64,000 bases of DNA from contig CACEWU010000001.1 of the NCBI GenBank assembly GCA_902563335.1, positions 41,025 through 105,024 of the forward strand. The letters are read 5' to 3'. Both the position numbers and the translations under genes were made by a program. Source of the stretch: an uncultured Prochlorococcus sp. (GTDB lineage Bacteria; Cyanobacteriota; Cyanobacteriia; PCC-6307; Cyanobiaceae). This document shows positions 44,068-61,149 of the stretch, in pieces (the stretch's first letter is position 1; every line of letters begins with the position of its first letter). Below the pieces are notes generated by a model that ran no database searches, had not been told where the DNA came from, and saw only the letters and a list, made by a program, of their open reading frames with translations.

Positions 44068-45018
44068 ATGAATTTGAGGGACGTGGATCTACCCCTAGAA
44101 GCATGGTCTTTACAAAATGCTCAGGCTCGAAGAGAAGCCTTGGCAAGATTTTGGCTTTATGCCCCAACTGACTTGTTGGAGACTTTGTGGTCCTCACCTG
44201 TTGGTAATACAACTACTGAATTGGTAAGGCTCCTTAAGGATGATAGTCAACTTAACGCTAGTGAGATTGCCCTTAGAAATCAGATTAATGAGGCTCTGAG
44301 TCATGGATTGCAGCAACCTTTGTCACCACAATTATTGATTGCGAATTTTTTATTCTCTCCAATTGGTCGCCTGAAGATTCAGAATCCTGAACAATACTTA
44401 CCAGCATGGTTTGTCTTAATTTATAAGGGTTTATATGAGCAAGGTGAGGGTGATAAACAAAATTATGTCCCTTTAGAGGCATCTAATGTGCAGCAGGTTG
44501 CATCTGATGTGCCAATACAAAATAACCAAAATCAACAGCAGGATTTGAATCAATTTCCTTCTAATTTAGAGGAATTAGTTGTTAATAGAATCCAACTTAA
44601 TAGAATGCTTGGGCTTTCCAACCTGCACTATATAGATCCAGATGATCAGGAGATTAGTGAAGAGTTGATCGCACTTCGTTGCTCTTTTGCGAATGCTATA
44701 AAAGCCTGTCCAGAAGAAAAGTTGGAGAGTCTTTGGGCGGGAGAACTTAATGATAGATATTGGTCAATGGTTCGTAGTGGTATACAGAAACAGGCTCTTT
44801 CATCTGTAGATGAAGCAATGAAGCAAGAAGTTGTACTGAAACTTTCTCCGGCTCAAGGAGGAGGGTTTGATAAGCCAGGTTCAATTAATGCCTTGTTGAT
44901 TGCGATGCTTTATTTCGAGCCAGGAACAATGACTGTTAATGATCCGGAGAGCAATGTTCCGAGTTGGCTGCTAGAAAACTTCCGAGAGATATTTATGCAG
45001 ACACTTCCTTCGTCTTGA
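44068..45018 (+). CDS. Hypothetical protein with an internal duplication
   Basis: A 316-residue soluble protein that I cannot assign. Its two halves are related. The first has RFWLYAPTDLLETLWSSP and LFSPIGRLKIQNPEQYLPAW; the second has AIKACPEEKLESLWAGE and YFEPGTMTVNDPESNVPSW. The shared ending [YF]xxPG...NPE..[LV]P[AS]W then continues with a helix ending Y/F-K/R-x-L/I-Y/F. A Gln/Asn-rich linker at about 145-165 (QNNQNQQQDLNQF) separates them. It lies in a plus-strand series of glycosyltransferase genes, so a partner or scaffold role there is a guess. Confidence 0.7.
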   Translation: MNLRDVDLPLEAWSLQNAQARREALARFWLYAPTDLLETLWSSPVGNTTTELVRLLKDDSQLNASEIALRNQINEALSHGLQQPLSPQLLIANFLFSPIGRLKIQNPEQYLPAWFVLIYKGLYEQGEGDKQNYVPLEASNVQQVASDVPIQNNQNQQQDLNQFPSNLEELVVNRIQLNRMLGLSNLHYIDPDDQEISEELIALRCSFANAIKACPEEKLESLWAGELNDRYWSMVRSGIQKQALSSVDEAMKQEVVLKLSPAQGGGFDKPGSINALLIAMLYFEPGTMTVNDPESNVPSWLLENFREIFMQTLPSS

Positions 45019-45040
45019 TCAGAGAAATGCATCTTGTTGC

Positions 45041-46249
45041 ATGCGCTTACTTTTTTCACACTCCAATTATCCATCACAATTTCGACGATTAGTTCCTGCT
45101 CTGCAGAAGGCAGGTCATGAAGTTGTTTTTTTATGTCGCCAGAAGGAGTGGCATGCCCCGCCTTCCAAGGGGTTTAGGTTGCTTCCTTATAAAATTCATC
45201 GTGCTTCAAAACCAGAATTTCTACATCCTTATTTGAGACGCTTTGAAGATGTTGTTCTGGCTGGCCAGGCAGCCTTTAGGGCTGCCACACGTTTGAAGTC
45301 AGAAGGATGGATTCCTGATGTCATTGTGAGCCACATTGGATTTGGCAGTGGCCTTTACCTTTCAGATTGTTTTCCCGAAGCTAGAAGAATCGGATGTGCT
45401 GAGTGGTACTACAGGCCCTTTGGCAGTGATGTTGATTTTTTGAGAAAGGGAATTGTCTCAGATGATCGCAAGATGCGACTTAGAACTTGGAATGCTCAGC
45501 TTTTGCTTGAGGCTGAGTCTTGTGATCTTTTAGTTACACCTACTAAATGGCAATGGAAACAGTTTCCTGAAGAACTTCAATCACGAATGAGGATTGTTCA
45601 TGAAGGCATTGACTTTGAGGGACTTTCTTTGCTTCGAGCAAGGCGCCCCAATCTGCCAGCGTCTCTTCCCACTAGTGAGCAAATCGAATGGGTTACTTAT
45701 GTAAGTAGGGGTTTTGAGGAATATCGAGGATTCCCTCAAGCAATGCAAGCATTGCATTTGCTTCAGGAAAGACGGTCGTCGATACATGTAGCTATCGCCG
45801 GTGCAGATGTTGTTGCATATGGATCTCCTAGAAGTGATGGTCGAACATGGCAGCAATGGGCTCAACAGGATCTTGGTCTGGATTCTTCACGAACTCATTG
45901 GTTGGGGTCATTACAGGAGAATGAATATCAGGCGCTTTTATCCCATAGCAGAGCCCATTTATATCTCACGATTCCTTTTGTATTGAGTTGGAGTTTGCTT
46001 GAAGCAATGGCTGTTGGGTGTCCGATAGTTGCCAGCTCGACTCCCCCAGTTCAGGAGGTCTTGATTGATGGAGAGAATGCGTTATTAAAAGATTTCTGGG
46101 ATCCATTGGCTCAGGCAGATGCATTGGAAGAGCTTGTGAAGTCCAGTGATTATTCAAATCATCTTGGAGCTAATGCCTCCGAAGCTGCCAAAAAATATGC
46201 GTTCAAGGATTCTTTGAAGACTTGGAATTCAATGCTTTTTGGACAATAA
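45041..46249 (+). CDS. GT4 glycosyltransferase, PF12000-type N-terminus
   Basis: A 402-residue GT-B enzyme parallel to the one at 39803. It starts MRLLFSHSNYPSQFRRLVP and has PDVIVSHIGFGSGLYLSD and GCAEWYYRPFGSDVDF. The donor domain contains VTYVSRGFEEYRGFPQAMQA, AIAGADVVAYGS and LYLTIPFVLSWSLLEAMAVG, with the GT4 catalytic Glu in LLEAM. It starts at ATG 45041, 22 bases after the previous stop. It is the last gene before the repeat-protein leader. Alanine- and serine-poor spacing suggests no membrane anchor. The sugar and acceptor are unknown. Confidence 0.88.
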   Translation: MRLLFSHSNYPSQFRRLVPALQKAGHEVVFLCRQKEWHAPPSKGFRLLPYKIHRASKPEFLHPYLRRFEDVVLAGQAAFRAATRLKSEGWIPDVIVSHIGFGSGLYLSDCFPEARRIGCAEWYYRPFGSDVDFLRKGIVSDDRKMRLRTWNAQLLLEAESCDLLVTPTKWQWKQFPEELQSRMRIVHEGIDFEGLSLLRARRPNLPASLPTSEQIEWVTYVSRGFEEYRGFPQAMQALHLLQERRSSIHVAIAGADVVAYGSPRSDGRTWQQWAQQDLGLDSSRTHWLGSLQENEYQALLSHSRAHLYLTIPFVLSWSLLEAMAVGCPIVASSTPPVQEVLIDGENALLKDFWDPLAQADALEELVKSSDYSNHLGANASEAAKKYAFKDSLKTWNSMLFGQ

Positions 46250-46295
46250 AAAAGGCTTGATTAATGTGGTTTAGAGCGCTTTGCACCGTATTGAT

Positions 46296-46318
46296 AGTGT
46301 TAGGACACCCTAACTACT
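46296..46318. repeat. Inverted repeat upstream of the repeat-protein promoter
   Basis: GTTAGG (46299-46304) and CCTAAC (46309-46314) form a perfect 6-bp dyad around ACAC. AGT (46296-46298) can pair with ACT (46316-46318) around one unpaired base, extending it to nine pairs. It lies 13 bases before the proposed -35 element. There is no T-run, so an operator or a weak end for the upstream gene are both possible. Confidence 0.5.
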
Positions 46319-46330
46319 GGGCCAGGGGCA

Positions 46331-46359
46331 TTGATTTGACCTCTTTGAGGCGCTATAAA
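46331..46359 (+). promoter_or_regulatory. Candidate sigma70-type promoter of the repeat-protein gene
   Basis: TTGATT at 46331-46336 and TATAAA at 46354-46359 are separated by exactly 17 bases. Transcription would begin near 46366, leaving a leader of about 107 bases before the ATG at 46473. The elements are near consensus, but AT-rich genomes give chance matches. Confidence 0.5.
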
Positions 46360-46406
46360 TATGCCGCCAAGTCTCTTAGTTTTTCTAAGCGACTTTTTTA
46401 AGGCAC

Positions 46407-46451
46407 ACTCCGCCCCCTTGGTGGGTGCGTTGTGACATAAACCAACCCACC
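46407..46451 (+). promoter_or_regulatory. Leader with two mutually exclusive base-pairings
   Basis: The segment GGTGGGTGCG (46420-46429) can pair with CGCCCCC (46411-46417, one mismatch) or with ACCCACC (46445-46451, seven perfect pairs). The two pairings compete for the same bases. Such an arrangement can switch ribosome access or RNA stability. No Shine-Dalgarno sequence is seen before the ATG at 46473. The structure is read by eye, without free-energy calculation. Confidence 0.4.
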
Positions 46452-46472
46452 AAATCCAAAAGTCCGCCACCG

Positions 46473-48515
46473 ATGTCTTCGAGTTACAACACAATTCTGG
46501 GTACCGACACTGCGAATACGCTTATCGGATCCAACGGTGCTGATTCCATTGCTGCCCTTTCAGGTGACGACACCGTCGTCGTTCAGGGAGACGATCTCAT
46601 TTATCTCGACGCTGGCAATGACAGCTTGTCGATGAATAGCAACATTACTTCTGGCTCCGTATACGGAGGAGACGGTAATGACACATTCAATCTCACCGCT
46701 ACTGCACACAATTCACTGTTCAGTGGTGACTCAGGTAATGACACCCTGTCATTCAGCGTTGGCCCTCTTACATCAGAGCTCCAAGGTGGTGCCGGTAATG
46801 ACTCATTAGTTATTAACGATGATGTAACTGGAGTCACTATTTCCGGTGGTAACTCTGCTGCAACCTCTAGCGATGGTGCTGACACTATCTCGGTTTCAGG
46901 AACTCTTGCTAGTTCCTTGGTCGAAGGAAATGGTGGTGCTGATACCTTGGTTGTTGGCGGTAAAGCAAGTTCTTCAACAGTTAGGGGTGGCCAAGGTAAT
47001 GACACCCTTTCATTCGGCGCCAGTGTTACAGGGTCAACCATTTATGGAGACCTTGGAGCTGACACCCTCCAGTTAAATACAGGAAATGTAAGAAACAGTC
47101 TTATACAAGGTGGAAGCGATACCGATACTTCAAGCGACGGAAAGGATTTAGTTTCTATCGGAGTTGCTATATCAGCTTCTACAGTTCTTGGTAACGGTGG
47201 CGATGACACCATTAATTTGGCCGGAACTGGCATCCTTGATGGTTCAAGTGTTCATGGTGGTAAAGGAAACGACGTCCTTTCCAAAGGTGCTGGAACTTTA
47301 AGTACTGCTTATCTTGCTGGTGACCTAGGAAACGACACAATTAGTCTTCTTGCAGTTTCTCTTTACGGTTCAACTCTTTACGGAGATAACTCAACAACTT
47401 CAGGTGGTGATGATGTCATCAACCTTGCAGCTGCTGGAACAGGGATCCAGAACACCACAGTTTATGGAGGCTCCGGTAAGGACACTATCGTTGTTAACGA
47501 CAACACTACTGAGGCCAACCTTACTAGCTTCTTCCAAGGAAATGCTGGTAACGACTCACTGAGATTTAGTGGTTCTGCTATCTCCTCTACGGTTCGTGGT
47601 GGTCAAGGTAATGACACTATTGCTCTTAGCTACTCTGGTTCTGGTGGCTCCGTTGCTTCTCAGTTCTATGGTGATAAGGGTGATGACTTCATAACAGTTG
47701 CTGTTGCTTATGGTGCTGGAACTATTTACGGAGACGAGTCAGCAACAGGTGGTAGTGGTCAGGACACCATTTCCGCTGGTAATTTGACCAACAGCGCTGT
47801 TATTTATGCTGGTGGTGGCAACGACACTCTGGATGTTTCCGCATTAACCTCTTCCACTCTTTACGGTGGAGATGGAGCTGACACCATTGGCGTTGCAGGT
47901 GGTGCAGCTGGCCAGATCTACGGTGATGCAGGAAATGACACCCTGAGTATTGGTGCAGGCACTACTACTCTTTACGGTGGTGCAGGTACTGACTCTGTAA
48001 ACGTTGGTACTGGCGCAAGTAACAAGCTTTACGGCGGTGCTGACAACGACACCTTCGATGCAGCTGGCGCAGTAAATACTGCAACTGTTGTTGGTGGAGC
48101 TGGTGCTGACATCTTCACATTCGATGGAGCTGGAGTAACTTCCTCCAAGATCAGTGGTGGTACTGGAAATGATTCCGTTAACTTCGGAGTTCACGTTACC
48201 GTCGCTAGCAGCAATACCACGGTTTACTTTGGTTATGGAGACGGCCAAGACTCAATAGCCTTTGGCGCTCACGCAACACAAGTAACTGCAGGAACTCTGA
48301 TGATTGCAGTTGACAGTCAGTACGGAGCAACTTCCTCTTACGGAATCTCTGGTGCGGCTGGTGCGGCAGACAGAACTGTTACCTTCGGTTCAGGTTCTAA
48401 CCAAGGCAAGATCGCGTTCACTAACTTGTTCTCTGTAACTAGTGGAACATTCTTGAGTGCACAAGGCGTTAGCTTCACAACAGTAAGCACAGCCACTATC
48501 ACCGCTCTTGGTTGA
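46473..48515 (+). CDS. Secreted RTX-like tandem Gly/Asp repeat protein (candidate surface-layer protein)
   Basis: A 680-residue protein almost entirely of tandem repeats. About 24 units, mostly 18-22 residues, start with G[GDN]xGxD[ST]-hydrophobic-x-hydrophobic (GGDGNDTFNL, GDSGNDTLSF, GGQGNDTLSF, GGAGTDSVNV) and end T-hydrophobic-[YVR]. Four units (4, 8, 12 and 17) carry an extra Ser/Thr-rich insert. The nonapeptide core resembles calcium-binding RTX repeats, but one core per roughly 20 residues is unusual. It has no signal peptide; the last 80 residues are non-repetitive and Thr/Phe-rich, like a type I secretion signal. Codons favour AAC, GAC, TTC and GGT, unlike the neighbours, suggesting high expression. 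The start is ATG 46473 (MSSSYNTILG); ATG-like starts upstream give unlike residues. Confidence 0.88.
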   Translation: MSSSYNTILGTDTANTLIGSNGADSIAALSGDDTVVVQGDDLIYLDAGNDSLSMNSNITSGSVYGGDGNDTFNLTATAHNSLFSGDSGNDTLSFSVGPLTSELQGGAGNDSLVINDDVTGVTISGGNSAATSSDGADTISVSGTLASSLVEGNGGADTLVVGGKASSSTVRGGQGNDTLSFGASVTGSTIYGDLGADTLQLNTGNVRNSLIQGGSDTDTSSDGKDLVSIGVAISASTVLGNGGDDTINLAGTGILDGSSVHGGKGNDVLSKGAGTLSTAYLAGDLGNDTISLLAVSLYGSTLYGDNSTTSGGDDVINLAAAGTGIQNTTVYGGSGKDTIVVNDNTTEANLTSFFQGNAGNDSLRFSGSAISSTVRGGQGNDTIALSYSGSGGSVASQFYGDKGDDFITVAVAYGAGTIYGDESATGGSGQDTISAGNLTNSAVIYAGGGNDTLDVSALTSSTLYGGDGADTIGVAGGAAGQIYGDAGNDTLSIGAGTTTLYGGAGTDSVNVGTGASNKLYGGADNDTFDAAGAVNTATVVGGAGADIFTFDGAGVTSSKISGGTGNDSVNFGVHVTVASSNTTVYFGYGDGQDSIAFGAHATQVTAGTLMIAVDSQYGATSSYGISGAAGAADRTVTFGSGSNQGKIAFTNLFSVTSGTFLSAQGVSFTTVSTATITALG

Positions 48516-48572
48516 TTAATCTCTAAATATCAATCTGTAGAAAACTACTAAACTACAGTTGAATAATTAAGC

Positions 48573-48606
48573 GGGGAAGGTCTTAATCAACCTTCCCCAT
48601 TTTTTT
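48573..48606 (+). terminator. Strong rho-independent terminator of the repeat-protein gene
   Basis: Stem GGGGAAGGT (48573-48581) pairs perfectly with ACCTTCCCC (48590-48598) around an 8-base loop, followed by A and seven Ts (48600-48606). It is the strongest intrinsic terminator seen in the window and fits an abundant mRNA. It ends only 10 bases before the ATG of the next gene. Confidence 0.92.
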
Positions 48607-48616
48607 GTCAAAAACA

Positions 48617-50746
48617 ATGAAACCAACTTGGCAAAACATATTGCTCCGCAAGACATCTCATGATGTTCTTGTTGATTCAGTAGACTCGACTCAAGGTCTT
48701 GCTCGCATAGCAAGTTTAATTATTCAGGCAGAATGGGCTACGGCTGAGTCCGCATTACTCTCAAGCGTTGATTTCACTGAAAAAGCCAGACTTTCTTTGC
48801 TTGCATTTCTAGATTTACGTATAAGGAATTTTTCTAGACTAAATCGACTGATTCCATATTTAGTTCAGAGGTTTCCTCAGGATCCATTTGTTCGCTCCTT
48901 GTGGGTGAATTGGAATCTTATTTCAGGCAATGAATCTGACTTGCTTAAGCTTCCAGATTCGTTTTGGGCAAAAGAGACTTCTTGTCTACATCTTTGCTTA
49001 TCACATGGCTATTGGTTATTGAAAAAGACTGCTTTTCAAGAGTGCGAGTTCTTAATTGAGACTGTCTTATCTCAGGAATCATTAGATAGAGATTTATTGA
49101 TATCTCAACTCTTTCAGAGGAAGAGAGAACCACATAAGGCATTAGAAAAGTTGATGCCTTGGTGTAATTATGCCTTTGGCCGGCCTGATTTTTGGCGCAC
49201 TTTTCTTCAGCTTCATTTTGAATTGAGGAAAGGTGATCATCTTGCAACTTTTCTCAGGCAAGGACTAGGAGAGGTTCCTCGAAAGGAGGAAATCCTTGAT
49301 CTTTTTGCTTGGGGCTGTGTTTTGCAGAGAAAGCCTGCCGAAGCTCGTAGGAATCTTTTTGTGCAGAGGCTATTGGGTTGGAATTTGTTTGAACCCACGG
49401 CTGTTGCTCATCTTTTTACTTGCTATGAAAACTTAGGTGAAACTGAAAATGTACAGTATATGCATTCATCTATATCTTCTGAACCGACTAAATTTCTTGA
49501 TGTTTTTGCAAGTTTAATCCTTCATCTCACAAGCATTGAACATCAATCAATTAGTTCAACTAGCAAGACGTTAATTGATGTTTTAGAGCGTAATCCAGGC
49601 TATAAAAAACATCTCCCTGTTAAACCATTAACTCCAGCATCTAAGAAAAAAAATGATCGATTACGCATTGCTTGGGTTACTGGGGATTGTAGATATCATC
49701 CAGTATCTAGGTTTTTACTTGGCTTTTTGAATTCTTTATCAGGAAATTTCTCTCATGATCATCTTTTAGTTAGTACAACTCCTTTTGATGATCAATTCCC
49801 TGAGTTTTTTCAGAAAATTGATGATTTACAAGTTATTGATTTTTCAGGCAATATGGCTCATCACATGACTAATGCTATTCGTGATTTAAGTCCAGATATT
49901 GCTATTGATCTTTCTGGCTGGACACATTCAAATATTGCAGCTTCTTTCATGGCAAGGGTGGCACCAATCCAGGTTAACTATTTAGGTTATTTCGGCTCTA
50001 CTGGTATCCCTGCTATGGATTGGTGGTTAGGCGATTCAAATTTGTTTCCTTCAAAAATGTCTCAGTGGCATAGTGAAAAAATATATCGCTTATCCCGATG
50101 TTTTCTTGCTTGGGATCCGCACCCTGAGTTACCTGAGGCAAACATTGATGTTCAAGAATCACCGCAAGGCCCTGTACGTTTTGGTTGCTTTAATCATCTG
50201 AGAAAACTTTCAGATTTTACTTTAAGGACTTGGGCTTCGATATTAGAAAAAGTGCCTAACTCACGACTAGTGTTGAAGGCTGCTGGTCTTGAGGATATGG
50301 AGGCTATTGCATTATTGAAGAGACGTCTAATGAGAGCAGGTTTTGACCTTGAGAGGATAGATTTTTTATCATTTGCTTCTTCAGTTTCAGAACATTTGTC
50401 TCAATATAGGTTTCTAGATATAGCATTAGATCCTTTCCCTAATGGTGGATGTACTACTACAGCTGAAGCTTTATGGATGGGAGTACCTGTAATAACTATG
50501 AAAGGAAAAAGTTACGTTAGTAGAATGAGTACTGCTGTCCTGAAAGGAGTTAATATGGATTCATGGATAGCTAATGATTACTCTTCTTATGAAGATTTAG
50601 CAGTTTTACATTCAAGTAACCTCTCTACTCTACGCCAGACTAGAGAGAATTGGCGATTGAAATTAAAGAAATCGGAACTAGGGGATTCAAAAGGATTAAT
50701 GAGGGAACTAGAAGAAGCTTTTAGTGTTATGAGTTCTCCGACCTAG
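48617..50746 (+). CDS. GT41 (SPINDLY/OGT-type) protein O-glycosyltransferase
   Basis: A 709-residue protein. The first 340 or so residues are helical TPR-like repeats, degenerate, e.g. LFQRKREPHKALEKLMPW and AWGCVLQRKPAEARRNL. The catalytic part begins near 348 with RLRIAWVTGDCRYHPVSRF, whose His corresponds to the base of OGT (HP motif). IQVNYLGYFGSTGIPAMDWW, FGCFNHLRKLSDFTLRTW and LDPFPNGGCTTTAEALWMGVP follow. GT41 enzymes add GlcNAc, glucose or fucose to Ser/Thr of proteins in the cytoplasm. The start is ATG 48617; TTG 48605 lies inside the terminator T-run. It follows the Ser/Thr-rich repeat protein directly, an obvious candidate substrate (inference). Confidence 0.88.
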   Translation: MKPTWQNILLRKTSHDVLVDSVDSTQGLARIASLIIQAEWATAESALLSSVDFTEKARLSLLAFLDLRIRNFSRLNRLIPYLVQRFPQDPFVRSLWVNWNLISGNESDLLKLPDSFWAKETSCLHLCLSHGYWLLKKTAFQECEFLIETVLSQESLDRDLLISQLFQRKREPHKALEKLMPWCNYAFGRPDFWRTFLQLHFELRKGDHLATFLRQGLGEVPRKEEILDLFAWGCVLQRKPAEARRNLFVQRLLGWNLFEPTAVAHLFTCYENLGETENVQYMHSSISSEPTKFLDVFASLILHLTSIEHQSISSTSKTLIDVLERNPGYKKHLPVKPLTPASKKKNDRLRIAWVTGDCRYHPVSRFLLGFLNSLSGNFSHDHLLVSTTPFDDQFPEFFQKIDDLQVIDFSGNMAHHMTNAIRDLSPDIAIDLSGWTHSNIAASFMARVAPIQVNYLGYFGSTGIPAMDWWLGDSNLFPSKMSQWHSEKIYRLSRCFLAWDPHPELPEANIDVQESPQGPVRFGCFNHLRKLSDFTLRTWASILEKVPNSRLVLKAAGLEDMEAIALLKRRLMRAGFDLERIDFLSFASSVSEHLSQYRFLDIALDPFPNGGCTTTAEALWMGVPVITMKGKSYVSRMSTAVLKGVNMDSWIANDYSSYEDLAVLHSSNLSTLRQTRENWRLKLKKSELGDSKGLMRELEEAFSVMSSPT

Positions 50747-51867
50747 GAGGGTAATAGTTCATTTATTTTTATTTTGCAGTAGGTTTCTATCTGTTCAGCA
50801 ACTCGTTGACCATTTGCGAGTGGAGATCTGTTTATTTTTTCTCTTAGTATTTTTCTAGAGTGCACATCTCTTTGCCCTTGAGATGCAAGCTTTTTAGCAA
50901 TTAATTGGTATTCCAAGCAATCATGAGCGATCCAACTGTCGCATTTAGCACTTCTGAGCAAACTAGTACTTAACCTCCCTACCATTCCTTCCCCAGCAAG
51001 TGCTATTACAGGCACTCCCATCCATAAAGCTTCAGCTGTTGTTGTTGCACCTCCATAGGGGATTGGATCTAACGCAATGTCAATCCACTTATAAAGCGTA
51101 AGGTGCGATTCAGTTCCTTCAACCCAATCGAGCATTATTAAGCGATTGTTCTCTAATCCATTTTTTTGAAATAGTTCTCGAATGCGATCCTTTTCTTCTT
51201 TTTCAACAAAGGTAATACTTTTAATTACTAATTCACTATTAGGTATGCCTTTTAAAACTTGACAGAAAAGATTAATAGCCTGAGTTCCTAACTTTCTACT
51301 ATTATTAAAACTGCCAAATCTTACATTTTCTCCATCTTCTCTCTCTAAGGGTGGTAACTTTATTGGCTTATAGGCCATATAGCCACCTTCAATATGTAGC
51401 AAATTCTGACGTCTGTCTATTTTATTTAAATTACCAAATAATTCTTTATCGCCAATCCAGCCATCAATGCATGAAAGGTAAGTCGGGGCAAAATAACCTA
51501 AGTAACTAAGTTGAACTGGTGCTGGCTTATAAATTAGTGCTTTTATCCGACTAAATCCTGTATATCCTCCTAACTCTATTATAACGTCTATATTTAGATC
51601 AGAAATGATTCGCGCAACTTCTATATCATTTGCTCCAGTTAAATCTATCCACTGTGAGCACTCTGCTTTTACTAAGTTTGTGACCTTATCTTGATTGGGA
51701 CCACAATGCAAACCGATTATTTCAAAATTTTTTTCGTTATGACTTTTTAAGATTGGTAGAAGGAAGCGAGAAACTGGATGATTACAGAAGTCTGATGATA
51801 TGTATCCAATCTTTAATCGTCTATCTACCAAAGGTTCATGAATACAATCAGCCCACATGTTTTTCAT
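50743..51867 (-). CDS. GT41 catalytic part, C-terminal fragment of a split gene
   Basis: This reading frame encodes the complete GT41 catalytic region: LKIGYISSDFCNHPVSRF with the catalytic His, PVQLSYLGYFAPTYLSCIDGW, FGSFNNSRKLGTQAINLF and LDPIPYGGATTTAEALWMGVP. In its paralogue at 48617 this part is fused to an N-terminal TPR region. Here the matching TPR part is the reading frame at 51848-52894, one base out of frame. An 8-T run at 51895-51902 (A8 in the mRNA) marks the change; removal of one base would join both into a 716-residue protein. The start of a separate product could be ATG 51867 or 51858, or TTG 51930. The 3' ends of both GT41 genes touch convergently. Confidence 0.8.
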   Translation of the reverse strand: MKNMWADCIHEPLVDRRLKIGYISSDFCNHPVSRFLLPILKSHNEKNFEIIGLHCGPNQDKVTNLVKAECSQWIDLTGANDIEVARIISDLNIDVIIELGGYTGFSRIKALIYKPAPVQLSYLGYFAPTYLSCIDGWIGDKELFGNLNKIDRRQNLLHIEGGYMAYKPIKLPPLEREDGENVRFGSFNNSRKLGTQAINLFCQVLKGIPNSELVIKSITFVEKEEKDRIRELFQKNGLENNRLIMLDWVEGTESHLTLYKWIDIALDPIPYGGATTTAEALWMGVPVIALAGEGMVGRLSTSLLRSAKCDSWIAHDCLEYQLIAKKLASQGQRDVHSRKILREKINRSPLANGQRVAEQIETYCKIKINELLPS

Positions 51868-52894
51868 TCCTCGGATGGATACTTTCTCCTCCCATTTTTT
51901 TTGCGACCTTAGCAAGTTCCTTTGGATCAATTAAGCTTGTTGCTGAACCAATGAACTGTAGATTAAATAATTGAACGTCATTAAATATATCCCCATTTTT
52001 TAGATGACGTTTTAAAATAGAAACAGATTTTTCTGGGTGACCAGTTTCAGCAAAATTTTGTGCAAGTGCTTCTTCTAAAGTTGTATTGTTTGGGCAGTAT
52101 TTGAGTCCATTTTTTAAAGTTCTTTGGCAAGCAATATTGTGTTTGAGAGCTTTCTGACAAGCTGCTAAATTTATCCAGTTGCTTGCTATTTGAGTGGTTT
52201 GCTTTGAAAGTGGTTCTAGTATTTCAATTGCTTCATCAATGTGTTGACGCTTCATGAGTATTGCTGCCCATGCTCCTTGAATGTGCTTTGCTTGCTTGAG
52301 GCTGTTCGAGAGTGATTGATACAGCTCTTCAGCTTTTGTGAGCTCATTTAAATCTTTTAGAAGGGTCAATCTGTTTGCAATAAGACTTGGATGTTGAGGT
52401 AAAGACTTGCTGCCATTCTCGAATGCTTGGAGTGCTTTTTCTGGCTCATTTTTTTTCCAGTAGATGACACCTAGCTCTAGCCAAGCAAGTCCTTCATTTG
52501 GATTATTCTGGCAGAACCTTTCTAGTAATAAACAAGATTTATTGGTATGATTATTACTTACAAAGATTTTTGATAATTTGAGTACAGGCGAGAAATTTGC
52601 CGGGTGTTCTAAGGTGGCCTTATTTAGCAACTCTATTGCTAGCCTTTGATTTCCAACTTTTAGATATGCATTAGCAGCATTAGAAAGTAGCTGTAAATTG
52701 TTTGGCCATTTCTGAAGATACTTGTTGTAGAGATTAATTGCTTCCTTTAGTTTTTGTTGTTGGCTCAGGAGTGCACCAAGATTCCCTACGTCTTCTGGTA
52801 TACACTTTTGATCAAGCAAAGCTTTATATAGGCTTTCTGCCTTTTGAAGTTCACCACAGGCGTGTGCTTTGTGTGCCCTTTGACGTAAGGTCAT
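51848..52894 (-). CDS. TPR N-terminal part of the split GT41 gene
   Basis: A 348-residue frame of at least seven TPR units, e.g. SLYKALLDQKCIPEDVGNLG, LLSNAANAYLKVGNQRLA and LAWLELGVIYWKKNEPEKA. It ends SLIDPKELAKVAKK and then 15 residues that look out of frame (MGGESIHPRNEKHVG). The ELAKVAKK-W joint of intact GT41 proteins is recovered by deleting one A in the A8 run. The TPR region would bind the protein substrate. It could also fold as a free TPR protein. It starts at ATG 52894 and is divergent from the gene at 52929, 34 bases away, so the promoters must overlap. Confidence 0.78.
   Translation of the reverse strand: MTLRQRAHKAHACGELQKAESLYKALLDQKCIPEDVGNLGALLSQQQKLKEAINLYNKYLQKWPNNLQLLSNAANAYLKVGNQRLAIELLNKATLEHPANFSPVLKLSKIFVSNNHTNKSCLLLERFCQNNPNEGLAWLELGVIYWKKNEPEKALQAFENGSKSLPQHPSLIANRLTLLKDLNELTKAEELYQSLSNSLKQAKHIQGAWAAILMKRQHIDEAIEILEPLSKQTTQIASNWINLAACQKALKHNIACQRTLKNGLKYCPNNTTLEEALAQNFAETGHPEKSVSILKRHLKNGDIFNDVQLFNLQFIGSATSLIDPKELAKVAKKMGGESIHPRNEKHVG
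51895..51902 (-). other. A8 homopolymer at the frame break of the GT41 gene
   Basis: Eight consecutive T on the plus strand (A8 in the mRNA, in context GC-A8-TGGG). With seven A the frame reads A-K-K-W-E-E-K, joining the TPR and GT41 halves. Possible meanings are a real mutation, a sequencing error, or polymerase slippage or phase variation. Confidence 0.85.
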
Positions 52895-52928
52895 TCCAAT
52901 GACATCGCTGAGCTCCAGCTAAGGCCTG

Positions 52929-54689
52929 ATGCCCATACTTTCAGAATACAGGCAAGTAAAGGACTGGGCTAGTTTTTTAGAGTACGTGGTTACTGGCCCC
53001 CTTGAGAGGCTTCAGGAATTCGAGGAACATGCACGTCAGCAATTGGCTGTTTCAGGAGATCATGGTTGGGTTATTCCAATAGGCTTTTCTTTGTGGAGAG
53101 TCGAAAAGTATGTTGATGCATTAGATATCCTTGAAGTTGGAAATTCTCTGTCCAATTCAAATAGTCAATATAATGTTGTTAAAGGTATGGTTGCTAGGCG
53201 CATTCCTGGCAAAGAATCAGTTGCCAAAAGAGCATATTGTCATGCCTTAAAGCTTGAGCCAATGCGAGCGGATGTTTATTATAATCTTGCTAATCTTCTT
53301 CGTACAGATAACCCATCAATATCAGAGAAAGCCTATTTGCTAAGCTTAAAACTCGACCCAAATGCTCACCTTACTTGGCATAACTTAGGTCTTGCCCTTA
53401 ATGAGCAAGATAAACATGTGGAAGCACTCAGAGCATTTCGAAAAGGAATAGTCCTTAATCCTGAATACCCAGATGGCTGGTGTAATGCAGGGTTGGCATT
53501 GTTTGGTATGGATGATTATGCAACTGCTATTCGTTATTTTCATTACACAATAAATTTAGATGATAAAAATGAGGCTGGGCATGTGAATTTAGGTTATGCA
53601 TTGATGAATGAAAATCGTCCTTTGGAGGCTTTAGAGTGTCTGAAGCGTGGGGTGCAAATAAGTTCTGGTTCAGTAAATGCTATTTGGAATCTTTCTCTTA
53701 TACACCTCATGCTTGGTAACTATAAAGAAGGATGGGATCTTTATGAAGCTCGTTTTAAAACAGAACAATTTAAAAGCACTGTATATCCAACTACTGGTAC
53801 AAAAATAGAAAAGATGTCTCAGTTACCCTCAAAAGGAGAACCTCCAGTTGTTGTATGGAGTGAGCAGGGCATGGGGGATGCAATACAGTTTTGTCGTTAT
53901 CTCTATCTTTTGGAGGAGAAAGGAGTTCCATTTGTATTTAGCACACGTGAAATGCTGTTTTCACTTATGAAAGATTGGCTTCCTTATTCGCAGCGAGTGC
54001 TACTTGAAAAGACTTGGGATCGTAATGAAGACAAGAGACCTCATCTAGCTTTGATGAGCTTGCCTAGGATTTTTGATACAGATGTGCATACAGTACCCAA
54101 TGCTTATCCATACTTGACTGCTTCCAATGAAACGCCTAGTGAGTTCTTAATTGATAAGGCTCCTGGAGGGGTCAATGTGGGTTTGGTATGGGCATCTAAT
54201 CCTGACAACAAGGCTATGTATCGCCATAAAACGATCCCACTAGATTTACTTTTTTCTGATTTGGAAGAATTAATAGCTCTTGATTTAATTCAGCTACATT
54301 CTCTTCAGGTAGGTAAAGATGCAGAACAATTGGATAAATATAAAAAACATTGTGGTTTGCATGATTGGAATGGTCGATTAAATGATTTTTCAGATACTGC
54401 CTATGTCATCAGTCAACTTGATCTAGTTATTAGTGTAGATACTGCTGTTGCTCATTTGTCAGGTGCTCTTGGGAAGCCTACGTGGTTGCTATTACCTGCA
54501 AATGCAGATTTTCGCTGGTTATTGGATTGCTCTGACTCCCCTTGGTACCCAACCATGCGAATTTTTCGTCAGCCAGGACGTGGAGACTGGCAATCGGTTG
54601 CTAACGAGATCATTGAACAATTGAAAATTGTTTTTTCTCTTGATACAAGTGCACTTGCCAGTTCGAAGTTCTCGAGATCAAATACCTAA
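52929..54689 (+). CDS. TPR protein with GT9-like glycosyltransferase domain
   Basis: A 586-residue protein. Residues about 80-285 hold TPR units (YYNLANLLRTDNPSISEKA, LTWHNLGLALNEQDKHVEA, GHVNLGYALMNENRPLEA). The C-terminal half has GT9-like motifs: VVVWSEQGMGDAIQFCRYL, NVGLVWASNPDNKA and LDLVISVDTAVAHLSGALGK, ending MRIFRQPGRGDWQSVANEI. The layout matches the genes at 35830 and 61150. It opens a four-gene unit with the foldase, ABC exporter and HlyD-like genes; its stop is 1 base from the next ATG. That coupling makes a role in modifying the exported protein likely, but the reaction is not shown. Confidence 0.82.
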   Translation: MPILSEYRQVKDWASFLEYVVTGPLERLQEFEEHARQQLAVSGDHGWVIPIGFSLWRVEKYVDALDILEVGNSLSNSNSQYNVVKGMVARRIPGKESVAKRAYCHALKLEPMRADVYYNLANLLRTDNPSISEKAYLLSLKLDPNAHLTWHNLGLALNEQDKHVEALRAFRKGIVLNPEYPDGWCNAGLALFGMDDYATAIRYFHYTINLDDKNEAGHVNLGYALMNENRPLEALECLKRGVQISSGSVNAIWNLSLIHLMLGNYKEGWDLYEARFKTEQFKSTVYPTTGTKIEKMSQLPSKGEPPVVVWSEQGMGDAIQFCRYLYLLEEKGVPFVFSTREMLFSLMKDWLPYSQRVLLEKTWDRNEDKRPHLALMSLPRIFDTDVHTVPNAYPYLTASNETPSEFLIDKAPGGVNVGLVWASNPDNKAMYRHKTIPLDLLFSDLEELIALDLIQLHSLQVGKDAEQLDKYKKHCGLHDWNGRLNDFSDTAYVISQLDLVISVDTAVAHLSGALGKPTWLLLPANADFRWLLDCSDSPWYPTMRIFRQPGRGDWQSVANEIIEQLKIVFSLDTSALASSKFSRSNT

Positions 54690-54690
54690 T

Positions 54691-55425
54691 ATGCATTTCC
54701 CGATAAGTCAGGAAAAAGTTGTAGAGCTTGTTAGCCGAATGGAACTAACTGCTCAAGTTATGCAGCGATGCATTGAGGAGGAGATTATCGAATTAGTCAA
54801 TCTTTCAGATGAATGGCACCAGAACGCTTTAGAAGAGTTTTTAACGGCAAAGAAACTTTCTCAGGATGATTTGTCAGTTTGGTTAGATAAGAGAGGTTGG
54901 AGATCAGCGGATCTGGATATACATTTAGCGAAGCCTGAAGCACTTTTTCGTTTTGCGAAGCAACGTTTCGGGCCTGGCTTGGAGGAACGTTATTTGGCTA
55001 GTGCTTCAGATCTTGATAATGTGATTTATTCACTTTTAAGAGTTAAGGATGCTCTTTTGGCTAGGGAGTTGTGGTTGAGACTATGTGAAGGTGAGATTAG
55101 TTTTGTTAATGCTGCTGCCAAGTATGGTGAAGGGCCTGAAGCAAAGCGCAAAGGGTTGATTGGTCCTATTCCTATAGGGTCTATACAACCACCAAAGATT
55201 CGGAAGTCCTTAAGGGAGCTTAGTCCAGGTGAATTTACCTCTCCCAAGCAACTTGGTGAATGGAATCTTTTATTGCGATTGGAGCAGCTAAGTCCTTCCT
55301 CTTTTGATGAAACTATGCAGAGAAAACTTTTACTTGACCAATTACAGAGCTTTCTTAGTGAGCGCGCACAAGCTTTGCTTGAAGATCAGCCAGTAGACGA
55401 ACTTCATTACGACGCTGAATCATGA
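54691..55425 (+). CDS. PpiC/parvulin-like peptidyl-prolyl isomerase of the type I secretion unit
   Basis: A 244-residue protein without a signal peptide. The N-terminal half is helical (VVELVSRMELTAQVMQRC, EEFLTAKKLSQDDLSVWLDK), resembling the SurA-type arm. The second half shows the parvulin pattern: ARELWLRLCEGEISFVNAAAKYGEG, RKGLIGPIPIGSIQPPKIRKSL, LSPGEFTSPKQLGEWNLLLRL. Standard catalytic His residues are not obvious, so it may act mainly as a chaperone. It starts at ATG 54691 and overlaps the ABC gene by ATGA. Similar genes are commonly placed with HlyB-like exporters in cyanobacteria. It should keep the repeat protein export-competent in the cytoplasm (inference). Confidence 0.8.
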   Translation: MHFPISQEKVVELVSRMELTAQVMQRCIEEEIIELVNLSDEWHQNALEEFLTAKKLSQDDLSVWLDKRGWRSADLDIHLAKPEALFRFAKQRFGPGLEERYLASASDLDNVIYSLLRVKDALLARELWLRLCEGEISFVNAAAKYGEGPEAKRKGLIGPIPIGSIQPPKIRKSLRELSPGEFTSPKQLGEWNLLLRLEQLSPSSFDETMQRKLLLDQLQSFLSERAQALLEDQPVDELHYDAES

Positions 55426-58400
55426 GCAGCAAGCCAATATCCACTGAATTATTGGCAAGGTTTGAAGCTTTTAGTTCGCTTGAGCCGAATCATTTGGAAT
55501 GGCTTTCCAATCGGGCGGTCCCTTTACGGGCACGTATTGGTCAAGACATCCTCTTAGCTAATCGCTTGCCAGAGCATTGTTATTGCATTCTTGAAGGCCG
55601 TGGAAGGGTTCTGCATGAAGATCCTGGACTGCGCAGGCCAGTCACCATTGCATTGAGTAAGCCTGGCGATTTAGTTGGGTGGGTTGGGTTGAGAAGGCGT
55701 TCTCCTTGTGAATGGATCACATGTTCGGACCCGATGAAGCTTATTGGAATAAGTGCAGAAGATTTCTATTGGCTTGAAGAGAATTCCCAAGCTTTTGCGA
55801 ATTGGCTTTCAACAAAGAATTCGCCAGCTGAATTTATGGATGCTTTGAGGTCAGCTTTACGTAGAAGATCAATGGCTGATCCTCCAGAACGTGATGTTTT
55901 GCGTAGGCTTTTACCAGGGATGAAGGTTATTACATATAACTCAGGAGATTCTTTGCCTAATGATGATTCTATTTGGATTTGGAATGGTCTACCAACCTCT
56001 GAGAGTGAACTTCCCATAGAAATTGGTCAGTTTGTTGATTTTGAATTACTTGAAAAATTGCCTGATAAGAGTTCTGTACGCTTATTAAAAGTAAATCATG
56101 AACTTTGGGAAGAGTTGCTTGAGTCACCTGACGAAGTTGCTCCTGTTGAATTTATACCTCCTAAAATAAATGAAGGTACAGCTGAAGATCGCTATTCTGA
56201 TTTATTTGTTTCTGACCCTCAAGGACAACGTAATGATGGAGATTTAACAGCAAATGATGCTGAAGGTATATCGAACCTTTCTTCAACATCAAAGGTTCCA
56301 GTTTCAACAGGTGTGGGCTCATTAGGACAGGTGATGTCTTGTTTAGAGATGTTATCTACTTACTATAGAATTCCTTTTCGCTCTGATATTATTGAACGCA
56401 TTGCACGTGAACAATTACGTGATAAGTCCCCTAGTCTTCAATTAGTTGGTAATATCTCTACAATACTTGGATTTACAGGAGCATTTACTCCTGTAGCAGA
56501 GGATCAGCTGCATAGGGTTCCTTTTCCATGTATTGCTTTGATTGCTAATCAACCCTCTGTAATTTATGAAATTAGGAAAGGTGAAGTTAAAGCAGTAGTG
56601 CCAGAATATGGAAAGGTCACTTTATCAATTAAGGAGTTGACTCAAGGGGAAGGAGGTGCATCAATTTTAACATTATCTCCTGGACGTGATGCTCAGCGAA
56701 AGAAGTTAAATTTCAAATGGTTTTTGCCTCAATTAAATAAATATCGCAGAAGTTTGATTGAAGTATTTATAGCTTCATTGGTTTTGCAATTGACTAATCT
56801 TGCCACCCCATTAGTTTTTCAGCAAATATTTGACAAGGTTATTGGTCAACAAAATTTAGATACTCTTTATACATTGGGACTCGTATTATTAGCCATCAGC
56901 ATGTTTCAGGGGCTGTTAGGTGCTGTCAGAAGTTATCTTTTTACAGATACCACCAATCGAATTGATATTGCACTTGGAGGAGAAGTCATTCAACATCTAT
57001 TAAGGCTGCCTCTAAGTTATTTTGATAGAAGACCTGTTGGTGAATTACAAACACGAATCGCTGAGCTTGGAAACATTCGTGGTTTCCTGACTGGGAATGC
57101 AATTACCTTAGTCCTAGATGTTGTTTTTTCGGTCATATATGTGGCGGTTATGTTAAGTTATAGTGGCGTTTTGACTGCTGTTTCCTTAGCGGTTGTTCCA
57201 CTTTTCTTGGGCTTGACAATCATTGCTTCACCTTTAATTAGAGGACAATTGCGCAAGGCTGCTGAAAAGAATGCTAGGACCCAGGCTTTATTAGTAGAAG
57301 CACTCAGTGGTGTTCAAACTATTAAAGCTCAAAATGCAGAGAATTCTGTTCGATGGAACTGGCAACAACGTTATTCTGCTTTTATGAGTGAGAGTTTTCG
57401 AACACTTCTTATAGGAATATCTGCAGGTACGGTTAGCAACTTTCTTAATCAACTTACTGGATTACTAACTCTTTGGGTTGGTGCATATTTAGTTATTAAG
57501 GGTGATCTTACAATTGGTCAACTTATCGCCTTTAGAATTATCTCCGGCTATGTTGTTGGTCCATTACTTAACTTAGCTACTAGTTGGCAAAGTTTTCAAG
57601 GCGTTGCTCTTTCTATGGAACGTCTTAGTGATGTTGTTGATGCAGTCGATGAATCAGGTGGAGAATTAACTGATCAGTTGCCTTTGCCTCCAATTGATGG
57701 TGAGGTTGATTTCCAAAATGTTGATTTCAGTTTTAATGAAGGAACCAAAGTTGTTTCTAATGTTAGTTTTAAAATCCCTCCTGGTTCCTTTATAGGAATT
57801 GTTGGAAGAAGTGGCAGTGGAAAAAGTACTATTATGAAATTATTGCCACGTTTATATGAGCCTGAAAAAGGTCGAATTCTTATTGATGGATATGATATAG
57901 CTAAGCTACAACTGGCTTCAGTACGTAGACAAATAGGAATTGTTCCACAAGATAGTTTGCTTTTTGATGGCACTATTAGAGAAAATATATCCCTAACAGT
58001 TCCAGAAGCAACTAGTGAGGAGATTGCTGAAGCTGCACGAATTGCTGTTGCTCATGATTTCATCATGGAATTACCAGAAGGTTATGCAACACGTGTTGGA
58101 GAAAGGGGGAGTGGTCTATCTGGCGGCCAGCGACAGCGTATTGCAATCGCAAGGGCTGCCTTGCAAAAACCCTCTCTATTGATTCTTGATGAAGCGACAA
58201 GTGCACTTGATTACATTACAGAAAGGCAGGTTTGTTTAAACCTAAAGAAGGTTTTTGCGGGCACTACGGTTTTCTTTATCACTCATCGGTTAAGTACTAT
58301 TCGATCTTCTGATGAAATTCTGCTGATGGAGACAGGGAATTTAGTTGAGCAAGGGTCTCATGCTGAACTAATGGAATTAAAGGGTCGTTACTATGCCCTT

Positions 58401-58430
58401 TATTCGCAGCAGGAGGCAGACATTGACTGA
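55422..58430 (+). CDS. Type I secretion ABC transporter with cNMP-binding and C39-like domains
   Basis: A 1002-residue protein. Residues about 10-130 resemble a cyclic-nucleotide-binding beta-roll (CRP/PKA type: LPEHCYCILEGRGRVLHEDP, ALSKPGDLVGWVG). About 290-410 is a C39-like domain in which the catalytic Cys is replaced: VGSLGQVMSCLEML has Gln at that position, and the His is absent, so it cannot process substrates. Membrane helices lie at about 440-700. The nucleotide-binding domain has Walker A GRSGSGKS (about 795), LSGGQRQRIAIARA (about 899), LLILDEATS and the ITHRLS switch. The HlyB-like layout implies export of unprocessed RTX-type protein. The start overlaps the foldase stop in ATGA. 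Confidence 0.93.
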   Translation: MSSKPISTELLARFEAFSSLEPNHLEWLSNRAVPLRARIGQDILLANRLPEHCYCILEGRGRVLHEDPGLRRPVTIALSKPGDLVGWVGLRRRSPCEWITCSDPMKLIGISAEDFYWLEENSQAFANWLSTKNSPAEFMDALRSALRRRSMADPPERDVLRRLLPGMKVITYNSGDSLPNDDSIWIWNGLPTSESELPIEIGQFVDFELLEKLPDKSSVRLLKVNHELWEELLESPDEVAPVEFIPPKINEGTAEDRYSDLFVSDPQGQRNDGDLTANDAEGISNLSSTSKVPVSTGVGSLGQVMSCLEMLSTYYRIPFRSDIIERIAREQLRDKSPSLQLVGNISTILGFTGAFTPVAEDQLHRVPFPCIALIANQPSVIYEIRKGEVKAVVPEYGKVTLSIKELTQGEGGASILTLSPGRDAQRKKLNFKWFLPQLNKYRRSLIEVFIASLVLQLTNLATPLVFQQIFDKVIGQQNLDTLYTLGLVLLAISMFQGLLGAVRSYLFTDTTNRIDIALGGEVIQHLLRLPLSYFDRRPVGELQTRIAELGNIRGFLTGNAITLVLDVVFSVIYVAVMLSYSGVLTAVSLAVVPLFLGLTIIASPLIRGQLRKAAEKNARTQALLVEALSGVQTIKAQNAENSVRWNWQQRYSAFMSESFRTLLIGISAGTVSNFLNQLTGLLTLWVGAYLVIKGDLTIGQLIAFRIISGYVVGPLLNLATSWQSFQGVALSMERLSDVVDAVDESGGELTDQLPLPPIDGEVDFQNVDFSFNEGTKVVSNVSFKIPPGSFIGIVGRSGSGKSTIMKLLPRLYEPEKGRILIDGYDIAKLQLASVRRQIGIVPQDSLLFDGTIRENISLTVPEATSEEIAEAARIAVAHDFIMELPEGYATRVGERGSGLSGGQRQRIAIARAALQKPSLLILDEATSALDYITERQVCLNLKKVFAGTTVFFITHRLSTIRSSDEILLMETGNLVEQGSHAELMELKGRYYALYSQQEADID
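58411..58416 (+). promoter_or_regulatory. Ribosome-binding site that decides the HlyD-like start
   Basis: AGGAGG at 58411-58416 lies 6 bases before TTG 58423, the ideal spacing. It supports TTG 58423 over ATG 58393, which has no such sequence. Strong Shine-Dalgarno sequences are rare in this genome, so the site stands out. Confidence 0.7.
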
Positions 58431-59979
58431 TAAAACAAAAAAGGAAGTTATTTCTGTCAATGAATCTGTAAGGAAGGATGGTATTTCTGTAGTTAGATTG
58501 ACAAGGAATTTATTCAGAGATAAGCTTTATCCATATATATATAAACTTAAGAACTTATATAAGGATAGTATTAAATTCAAGATTCGTTCGGTAACAAGTC
58601 ATATTAAACAGGAAATAAGTCCTCAAATGAGTAGCTATAAGAATTCAATTAAAGAAAAACTGTATAACCGATTTAAATTAATTAAATCAGTATTTAAAGA
58701 TCGCTTTTTAGATAAAAATATTCCCGATGAGAACCATTCATCAGATTCAAAGGTTCTTCCAAGTCCTTTTAAGGAGTGGAGCGATCATTCTTCTTCGCTT
58801 TCTCAAGGAAGGCATTGGTCTTCCACAATCATTGCATTATGTTCAACAATGTTCGTTGGATCATTGCTTTGGGCATTTACAGCTCGAATAGATCAGACAA
58901 TTACAGTTAGAGGTAGATTGCAACCTTCAGGATCTGTTAGGGAAGTTGAATCACCTAGTGCAGGAGTAGTTAGTAAAGTCTACATAAATGACGGAGATGT
59001 TGTTAAAGCTGGTCAACCATTATTTATAGTTGAAGCCAAAGGACTCTCAAGTCGTCGCTCTGCATTAAATAATACATTAGCAATTTATGATGTTCAAGCA
59101 AACTCTCTGAAGAATATTATTGATGGAGGGGGAGATCCTTCTAAAATCAATGAAATACCTGAATTACCAATTATAAGTGACCCTAGTCTTTCTGCAAAAC
59201 TTATTACTGCCAGACAGCAATCTCAGTTAATTTTATCTCAATTATCTCAGATTTCATATAGAATTGAAAGTAGAGAAAAGACCTTAAAACTGCAGCAGCA
59301 AATTGCTGAGGGCCTGAAGCCTCTCTATGAGGCTGGTGCAATTGCACGTAACCAGTACTTAAATAAGTTGAATCAAGTTCAGGAAGTACGTGCTGATGCT
59401 CAGAGTCTTAAAGAAGAACGAATTCGAATATTAGGACAGGCAGCAAGTCAGCTCAATCAATTAAATACTCAAATGATCCAAATGAGATCTGAATTAGTAA
59501 ATTTACAAGAAACGTTGGATTATCGAACAGTCAAAGCTCCTATAGATGGTAAGATATTTGATGCAAAAGTATCTCCATACTCTGTCGTTAGTGGAGGTTC
59601 CATTGTTCTTAAGATTGTTCCAGATAATCGCTTAGAGGCAACTGTAAAAATAGGTAATAGTGATATTGGTTTTGTTAAAGTTGGTATGCCTGTGAATGTA
59701 TCAGTTGATTCTTTCCCTTCAGGTGAATTCGGATATCTTGAAGGGACTCTCAAGAGCATAGGTTTAGATGCATTGCCACCTTCTCAGTCATCACCTGACT
59801 ATAGTTTTCCAGCTACCGTTACTTTAAAACAACAAGAAGTTGAATCAGGAGGTAAACTTTTAAATCTTCAGAGTGGTATGAGTGTTAATGCAAATATAAA
59901 ATTGAGATCTAGACCAGTAATTACTATATTGACTGATTTGTTTACAAAGCAAATAGAAGGAGTGAGTCGTTTTCGATGA
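58423..59979 (+). CDS. HlyD-type membrane-fusion protein of the type I secretion system
   Basis: A 518-residue protein. Residues 1-130 are a Lys-rich cytoplasmic region, much longer than in HlyD. One membrane helix follows at about 131-150 (SSTIIALCSTMFVGSLLWAF). The periplasmic part has the lipoyl half-motifs VRGRLQPSGSVREVESPSAG and VVKAGQPLFIVEA, a long coiled-coil (LILSQLSQISYRIESREK to LNTQMIQMRSELVNLQE), the second lipoyl half YRTVKAPIDGKIFDAK and a beta-barrel region. It links the ABC exporter to an outer-membrane channel, which is not encoded in the window. It starts at TTG 58423 and overlaps the ABC gene by 8 bases. Confidence 0.9.
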   Translation: MTDKTKKEVISVNESVRKDGISVVRLTRNLFRDKLYPYIYKLKNLYKDSIKFKIRSVTSHIKQEISPQMSSYKNSIKEKLYNRFKLIKSVFKDRFLDKNIPDENHSSDSKVLPSPFKEWSDHSSSLSQGRHWSSTIIALCSTMFVGSLLWAFTARIDQTITVRGRLQPSGSVREVESPSAGVVSKVYINDGDVVKAGQPLFIVEAKGLSSRRSALNNTLAIYDVQANSLKNIIDGGGDPSKINEIPELPIISDPSLSAKLITARQQSQLILSQLSQISYRIESREKTLKLQQQIAEGLKPLYEAGAIARNQYLNKLNQVQEVRADAQSLKEERIRILGQAASQLNQLNTQMIQMRSELVNLQETLDYRTVKAPIDGKIFDAKVSPYSVVSGGSIVLKIVPDNRLEATVKIGNSDIGFVKVGMPVNVSVDSFPSGEFGYLEGTLKSIGLDALPPSQSSPDYSFPATVTLKQQEVESGGKLLNLQSGMSVNANIKLRSRPVITILTDLFTKQIEGVSRFR

Positions 59980-59989
59980 GCCTTATATG

Positions 59990-61129
59990 CTACTTTTTAT
60001 GCAAGATACTGTCATATAATTGAATTGTTGAGTCTGTTGTATTTTCCCAGTTAAAATCAGATAAGACTCGTTTTTTTAATCTCATTACTCTTGGGTGGAA
60101 AGGTCCTTCTTCCCATGCTTGCACTACAGCATTAAGTACTGAATCTGCGTCGGCAGGATCTACATATAAGGCATCATTTTTTAAATATTCAAGTTCGTGT
60201 CCAAAAGTACTACCAATTACCTGTGTATTATTTAGCGATGCTTCTAAGCTAACAAGTCCACAAGTTTCACACCAACTTGGAAGAATATGAATGGCAGAAG
60301 CTGCATATGCAGATGCAAGTAGCTCTTGAGGGAGATGATCAATAATAGTTAATTTATCTCCCGAAATTTCTTTGCATATTTCAGCATAAGCCGGCCAATT
60401 ATTACTACTACCAATTAAAACAATTGGTATCTTTGTTTTGCGTAATGCCCAGCAGAGCATAGCTTGATTTTTAGCAGGTTCAATTCGCCCTGCTTGCATT
60501 ATGAATTTAGTATTGATTCCTGTATGATCTTTAAATTTTTGAGCGTCTGCATCTAAAAAAATCTTTGGATTGACGCCATAGTTTGCAATATTAAATTGAT
60601 TTCCATTCCAATGAAGATCGTCTCTACAGGCTTTCATTTCAAGCAAACTATTAGGAAGGAGTCCATTGACCTCATTAATCAGTTTGCGTAGTTGAGGTAT
60701 TGAGAATAATTCTTCTTTCCCAAAACCATGGCTTTGATGGAGTTCATCATCTGCATTAAGTATGAGACGACGATCTTTGAGTTGTTGTAGTGCACTGTGT
60801 GCGTCATTTCCAGATTCCATTGCATCTTGAATTGCACTAAATGTGGCTCTGCTTCCCCAGAAGGCTCGCGGAATGGACACCCAAATTGGAGATACAACAA
60901 TTGGGACATTTGTTTTTTGGCAACTTTCGATCTGTTTTTGAAAAGATTTGACGTCTCTACAGTTGAAAAGATGCACCAAGTCAAAACCATTGGTGTCTGG
61001 CTGATTATTGTTAGTGATTGCTATTTGGTGACCGCGTTGATGTAGTCGTTGAGTAGTTTCTTGAATTTGGACAGAATCACCACCTTTGAAGTTTGCGGCC
61101 ACGCCGTGGTTCACCATTAGGATCCTCAT
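59990..61129 (-). CDS. GT4-family glycosyltransferase
   Basis: A 379-residue GT-B enzyme. It begins MRILMVNHGVAANFKGGDSVQ, with FDLVHLFNCRDVKSF and PIVVSPIWVSIPRAFWGS in the first domain. The second has FIMQAGRIEPAKNQAMLCWAL, VLIGSSNNWPAYAEICKE and IHILPSWCETCGLVSLEASL, the GT4 site with the conserved Glu in SLEA. The start is ATG 61129; TTG 61153 would overlap the previous stop. It is the last gene of a minus-strand unit with the TPR/GT9-like gene at 61150 and the glycosyltransferase at 62715, and converges with the HlyD-like gene. Confidence 0.86.
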   Translation of the reverse strand: MRILMVNHGVAANFKGGDSVQIQETTQRLHQRGHQIAITNNNQPDTNGFDLVHLFNCRDVKSFQKQIESCQKTNVPIVVSPIWVSIPRAFWGSRATFSAIQDAMESGNDAHSALQQLKDRRLILNADDELHQSHGFGKEELFSIPQLRKLINEVNGLLPNSLLEMKACRDDLHWNGNQFNIANYGVNPKIFLDADAQKFKDHTGINTKFIMQAGRIEPAKNQAMLCWALRKTKIPIVLIGSSNNWPAYAEICKEISGDKLTIIDHLPQELLASAYAASAIHILPSWCETCGLVSLEASLNNTQVIGSTFGHELEYLKNDALYVDPADADSVLNAVVQAWEEGPFHPRVMRLKKRVLSDFNWENTTDSTIQLYDSILHKK

Positions 61130-61149
61130 CTGGCCCTGTTTGTTTGGAT

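Follow-up and report, generated by a model that had tools for sequence, protein, structure and literature searches.

A TPR-GT41 glycosyltransferase gene interrupted by an isolated one-base insertion in a Prochlorococcus assembly

Several glycosyltransferases that combine N-terminal TPRs with a GT41 catalytic half have been described, including the TPR protein/OGT of Thermobaculum terrenum (5djs), the OGT of Xanthomonas campestris (2jlb), plant SPINDLY (7y4i, 8dtf) and human OGT (3pe3). Genes interrupted by a single base have also been described. In tssM of Citrobacter rodentium, the reading frame is split at a run of eleven A's (PMC4256274). A genome-wide survey with GeneTack placed frameshifts that occur in one genome at an unconserved site, with both parts confirmed by homology and Pfam, in a class termed "hypothetical pseudogene / sequencing error", and such homology-confirmed singletons were expected to be sequencing errors, not genuine mutations (PMC3711429). 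The gene analyzed here lies in a window of 64,000 nucleotides from an uncultured Prochlorococcus and touches on all three. It shares with the TPR-GT41 enzymes the N-terminal TPRs, the GT41 catalytic half and the aligned active-site His and Lys, whereas its sequence is distant from theirs (best matches 5djs, E 6e-45, and SPINDLY, 8e-43) and the present copy is read in two frames. Like tssM it is split at an A run, but the run is shorter, is not conserved and lies in the wrong direction for the commonest slip. From the GeneTack singleton class it shows no notable difference.

The gene is encoded on the minus strand in two open frames. The first (51848-52894) encodes 348 aa with Pfam TPR matches, and the second (50743-51930), an open frame of 395 aa, holds the GT41 catalytic part from about position 51900. 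The latter matches PF13844 with an E value of 8.6e-41 and 140.2 bits against a curated cut-off of 25, which places it in GT41. The two frames differ, and the reading changes at a run of eight A's on the minus strand (51895-51902, T8 on the plus strand), after which the last 15 codons of the TPR frame are out of frame. The single proteins of relatives align across both frames and switch from one to the other precisely at this run, with 50-56% identity to the three closest orthologs in the TPR (N) half and 60-66% in the catalytic half. An earlier note on this DNA had proposed that the two parts meet at the A8, and that dropping one A would give a protein of 716 residues, near the 709 of an intact paralogue; both points are borne out by the open reading frames and ortholog alignments, the joined reading comprising 333 + 383 residues. 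In this assembly the TPR array therefore stands in another frame than the catalytic part, whereas orthologs carry both in one. Judged by these comparisons, the gene would be an ordinary single-frame TPR-GT41 glycosyltransferase gene of a picocyanobacterium.

The intact paralogue, hereafter GT41b, is supported by its open reading frame and Pfam matches. It is encoded convergently on the plus strand (48605-50746; 713 aa, or 709 residues from the first ATG), overlaps the stop of the broken gene by 4 bases and shows 34% identity in the catalytic part. Both genes belong to a block (44068-61153) with type I secretion genes, an RTX protein, the two convergent GT41 genes and other glycosyltransferases. 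The order is a conserved 316-aa protein (44068-45018) with no Pfam match, a GT4 enzyme, the RTX protein (46425-48515, plus strand; PF00353), GT41b, the broken gene, a TPR protein with a GT9-like part (52929-54689, plus strand; Pfam), a rotamase-like protein, a type I secretion ABC transporter (55422-58430, plus strand) and an HlyD-type adaptor (58393-59979, plus strand), the last two recognized by sequence match. The rotamase-like product of 265 aa (54628-55425, plus strand), which lies between the TPR-GT9 and transporter genes, shows weak PpiC-type similarity below the curated cut-off and is possibly a folding helper for the secreted RTX protein. A weak match to a cyclic-nucleotide-binding (cNMP-binding) domain is seen at the N-terminus of the transporter. 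Gene order in the block, both GT41 genes included, is shared by 16 other picocyanobacterial genomes, and the 316-aa, RTX, TPR-GT9, rotamase-like, transporter and adaptor genes all keep their positions. The block appears to serve the glycosylation and secretion of a surface protein. The RTX protein, a candidate secreted substrate, would also be the natural candidate substrate of the glycosyltransferases. SwmA of Synechococcus WH8102 is likewise an RTX surface protein and is apparently glycosylated (PMC3034196).

Of 400 genomes searched in the same family, just 22 (about 5%), including the window's own, have strong matches to the catalytic half of the broken gene; the other 21 were aligned. The frame runs uninterrupted through the joint in 21 of 21. 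Twenty of these orthologs are full length (724-880 aa), and the remaining one, of 651 aa and with 67% identity over the catalytic part, is cut by a contig end. None of the 21 has a split frame or shows eight consecutive A's at the joint; the longest A run near the joint is one of seven, in a single ortholog and a few codons off. Relatives read, for example, GCA CTT AAG TGG GAA or GCA AAA TGC TGG GAA at this place, and within the close group the Trp-Glu hardly varies. Since the orthologs are intact and lack the A8, the break is private to this genome. A second genome of the same species was not found among the relatives' genomes.

Private changes were also counted against the three closest relatives. 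The N half carries 16 private amino-acid changes in 133 columns (relatives 11-32) and the C half 9 in 157 (relatives 12-29), and the rate of private base changes is highest at third codon positions. At none of the 70 columns that are invariant in 17 orthologs does the window's copy depart. In the alignment with human OGT, the NHP and RKL segments retain His and Lys at the active-site positions, the residues proposed to act in the human enzyme as active-site His and UDP-binding Lys. Apart from the joint, no stop disrupts the gene and neither half shows excess change, so the further disruptions and relaxed constraint of an old pseudogene are lacking. The earlier note had judged that both halves keep good motifs without other disruptive stops and that any decay must be recent; this holds, and no decay was found. 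The absence of decay places the indel at the tip of the tree, in one genome with an undecayed gene and intact orthologs.

Taken together, the single indel, the intact family, the lack of decay and the lack of any other clear frameshift in 223 kb suggest that the break is an isolated, unprogrammed singleton insertion of one base, most likely an artefact, with the gene intact in living cells; we put the probability of this reading at roughly one in two. The extra base would have arisen in vitro, when a fragmentary genome of single-cell type underwent whole-genome amplification, library preparation or assembly, and the cells themselves would carry an uninterrupted TPR-GT41 gene. A sequencing or assembly error is favoured because the assembly is of a fragmentary type: 1.25 Mb in 58 contigs at 65% completeness, the smallest contigs (57 and 58) measuring 2089 and 2031 bp. 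One single-cell pipeline, which retains only contigs longer than 2000 bp, has a benchmark rate of 3.0 indels per 100 kb (PMC6122165), and among benchmark single-cell genomes those of Prochlorococcus marinus had the fewest indels (PMC5519541). Relatives of the present genome include Prochlorococcus single-cell genomes, and its statistics fit, though they do not prove, a single-cell origin.

For the frameshift survey, 265 kb from three contigs (C1, which includes the window, C2 and C3) were compared with the reading frames of relatives, which covered 223 kb of coding sequence. In this sequence the GT41 gene is the sole clear frameshift. Two weak candidates in the window disappeared once the references had been cleared of antisense shadow frames. 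Seven weak candidate sites on C2 and C3 were each backed by one reference frame; in five the match came from an extension of a reference frame, upstream or antisense and in some cases containing internal stops, and not from a frameshift, and two (about C2:84800 and C3:20100) were set aside as resting on short reference frames with 25-34 bits per piece. The benchmark rate predicts about 7 indels in 223 kb, so that the one event found is no more than benchmark error predicts; it is also compatible with one real mutation. Against an artefact, 28 of the 29 A/T runs of at least eight in the checked coding sequence are in frame, the GT41 joint alone breaking it, and the assembly is therefore not generally poor at homopolymers. 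Moreover, short-read data seldom misread an A8, and the low indel number of the Prochlorococcus marinus benchmark genomes likewise speaks against an artefact.

A genuine and very recent insertion by replication slippage in the sampled cell or clone is a substantial possibility, though short of even odds. It would have created a new null allele, possibly selected, for instance through a change of the cell surface, with the TPR half produced as a stub and no catalytic half. Mutations that confer phage resistance are known to hit glycosyltransferase genes related to the cell surface, the indel falls in a long A run, a kind of sequence prone to replication slippage, and a single indel in 223 kb suits a clean assembly. 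Its position in the A8 is non-random, as runs of eight make up only 0.7% of the broken gene, but homopolymers attract real and artefactual indels alike. On the other hand, selection shows no trace of relaxation, and relatives that possess the gene retain it in the block. The present sequence evidence fits a mutation at the tip as well as an artefact; our inference favours the artefact, which stands slightly ahead of a fresh null mutation.

The earlier note had also remarked that runs of this length favour transcriptional slippage and phase variation in AT-rich genomes. On such a reading, RNA polymerase slippage would yield some in-frame transcripts, or changes in run length would turn the gene on and off. 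Slippage is indeed provoked by A/T runs, and more so by longer ones (PMC5574713), rescue of the frame has been proven at the A11 of tssM in another bacterium (PMC4256274), and both halves are preserved here. Nevertheless, this suggestion did not stand up to comparison and a functional A8 appears unlikely, since the joint carries no comparable run, and the frame no split, in any of the 21 orthologs, nor is the site conserved as programmed slippage would have it. Transcriptome data reveal that insertions dominate at homopolymers and deletions are rarer (PMC5574713), and reporter studies likewise found a one-base insertion to be the commonest slip (PMC6260861). In this gene, however, the frames are joined only by the loss of one base or the gain of two, and a one-base insertion gives A9, with a stop some 10 codons later. 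Proven slippage rescue of split genes involves A10-A11 (PMC6260861; PMC4256274), longer than the A8 here. For phase variation an unusually long repeat kept in related genes would be expected, whereas the run is absent from the orthologs and its length is common here, the checked coding sequence holding 29 A/T runs of at least eight, of which the other 28 stay in frame. Similar A8 runs sit in frame in the same gene (52449-52456) and in GT41b (49646-49653). A -1 ribosomal shift on A AAA AAA would enter a frame that stops about 10 codons on, and was rejected. That wild picocyanobacteria alternate alleles of seven and eight A's, and so turn on and off the glycosylation of an RTX surface protein exported by type I secretion, is very doubtful.

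A true split into two genes, one for a TPR protein and one for a catalytic protein with its own start, translated by stop-start coupling and assembling as two subunits, is highly improbable: the break does fall at the TPR/catalytic border, and an ATG (51858) with a GAGGA motif at a fitting distance lies just ahead of the upstream stop, but no relative is split and the catalytic protein would lose the conserved Trp-Glu segment. The catalytic frame has in-frame ATGs at 51867 and 51858, and a reading from the latter overlaps the TPR stop TGA (51848-51850), the basis for coupling. Shine-Dalgarno-like motifs precede 4 of 62 first ATGs of long open frames and 32 of 382 internal ATGs on C1, window included; with no enrichment before first ATGs, the motif means little, and a Shine-Dalgarno start inside the gene was dismissed as being at background level.

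Draft genomes routinely contain single-base breaks at homopolymers, and the frameshift as such matters little. It does counsel caution: relatives should be checked before a split gene in a fragmentary genome is called decay or a switch. A real and polymorphic indel would indicate phase variation in free-living marine picocyanobacteria, in a gene beside a conserved secretion locus.
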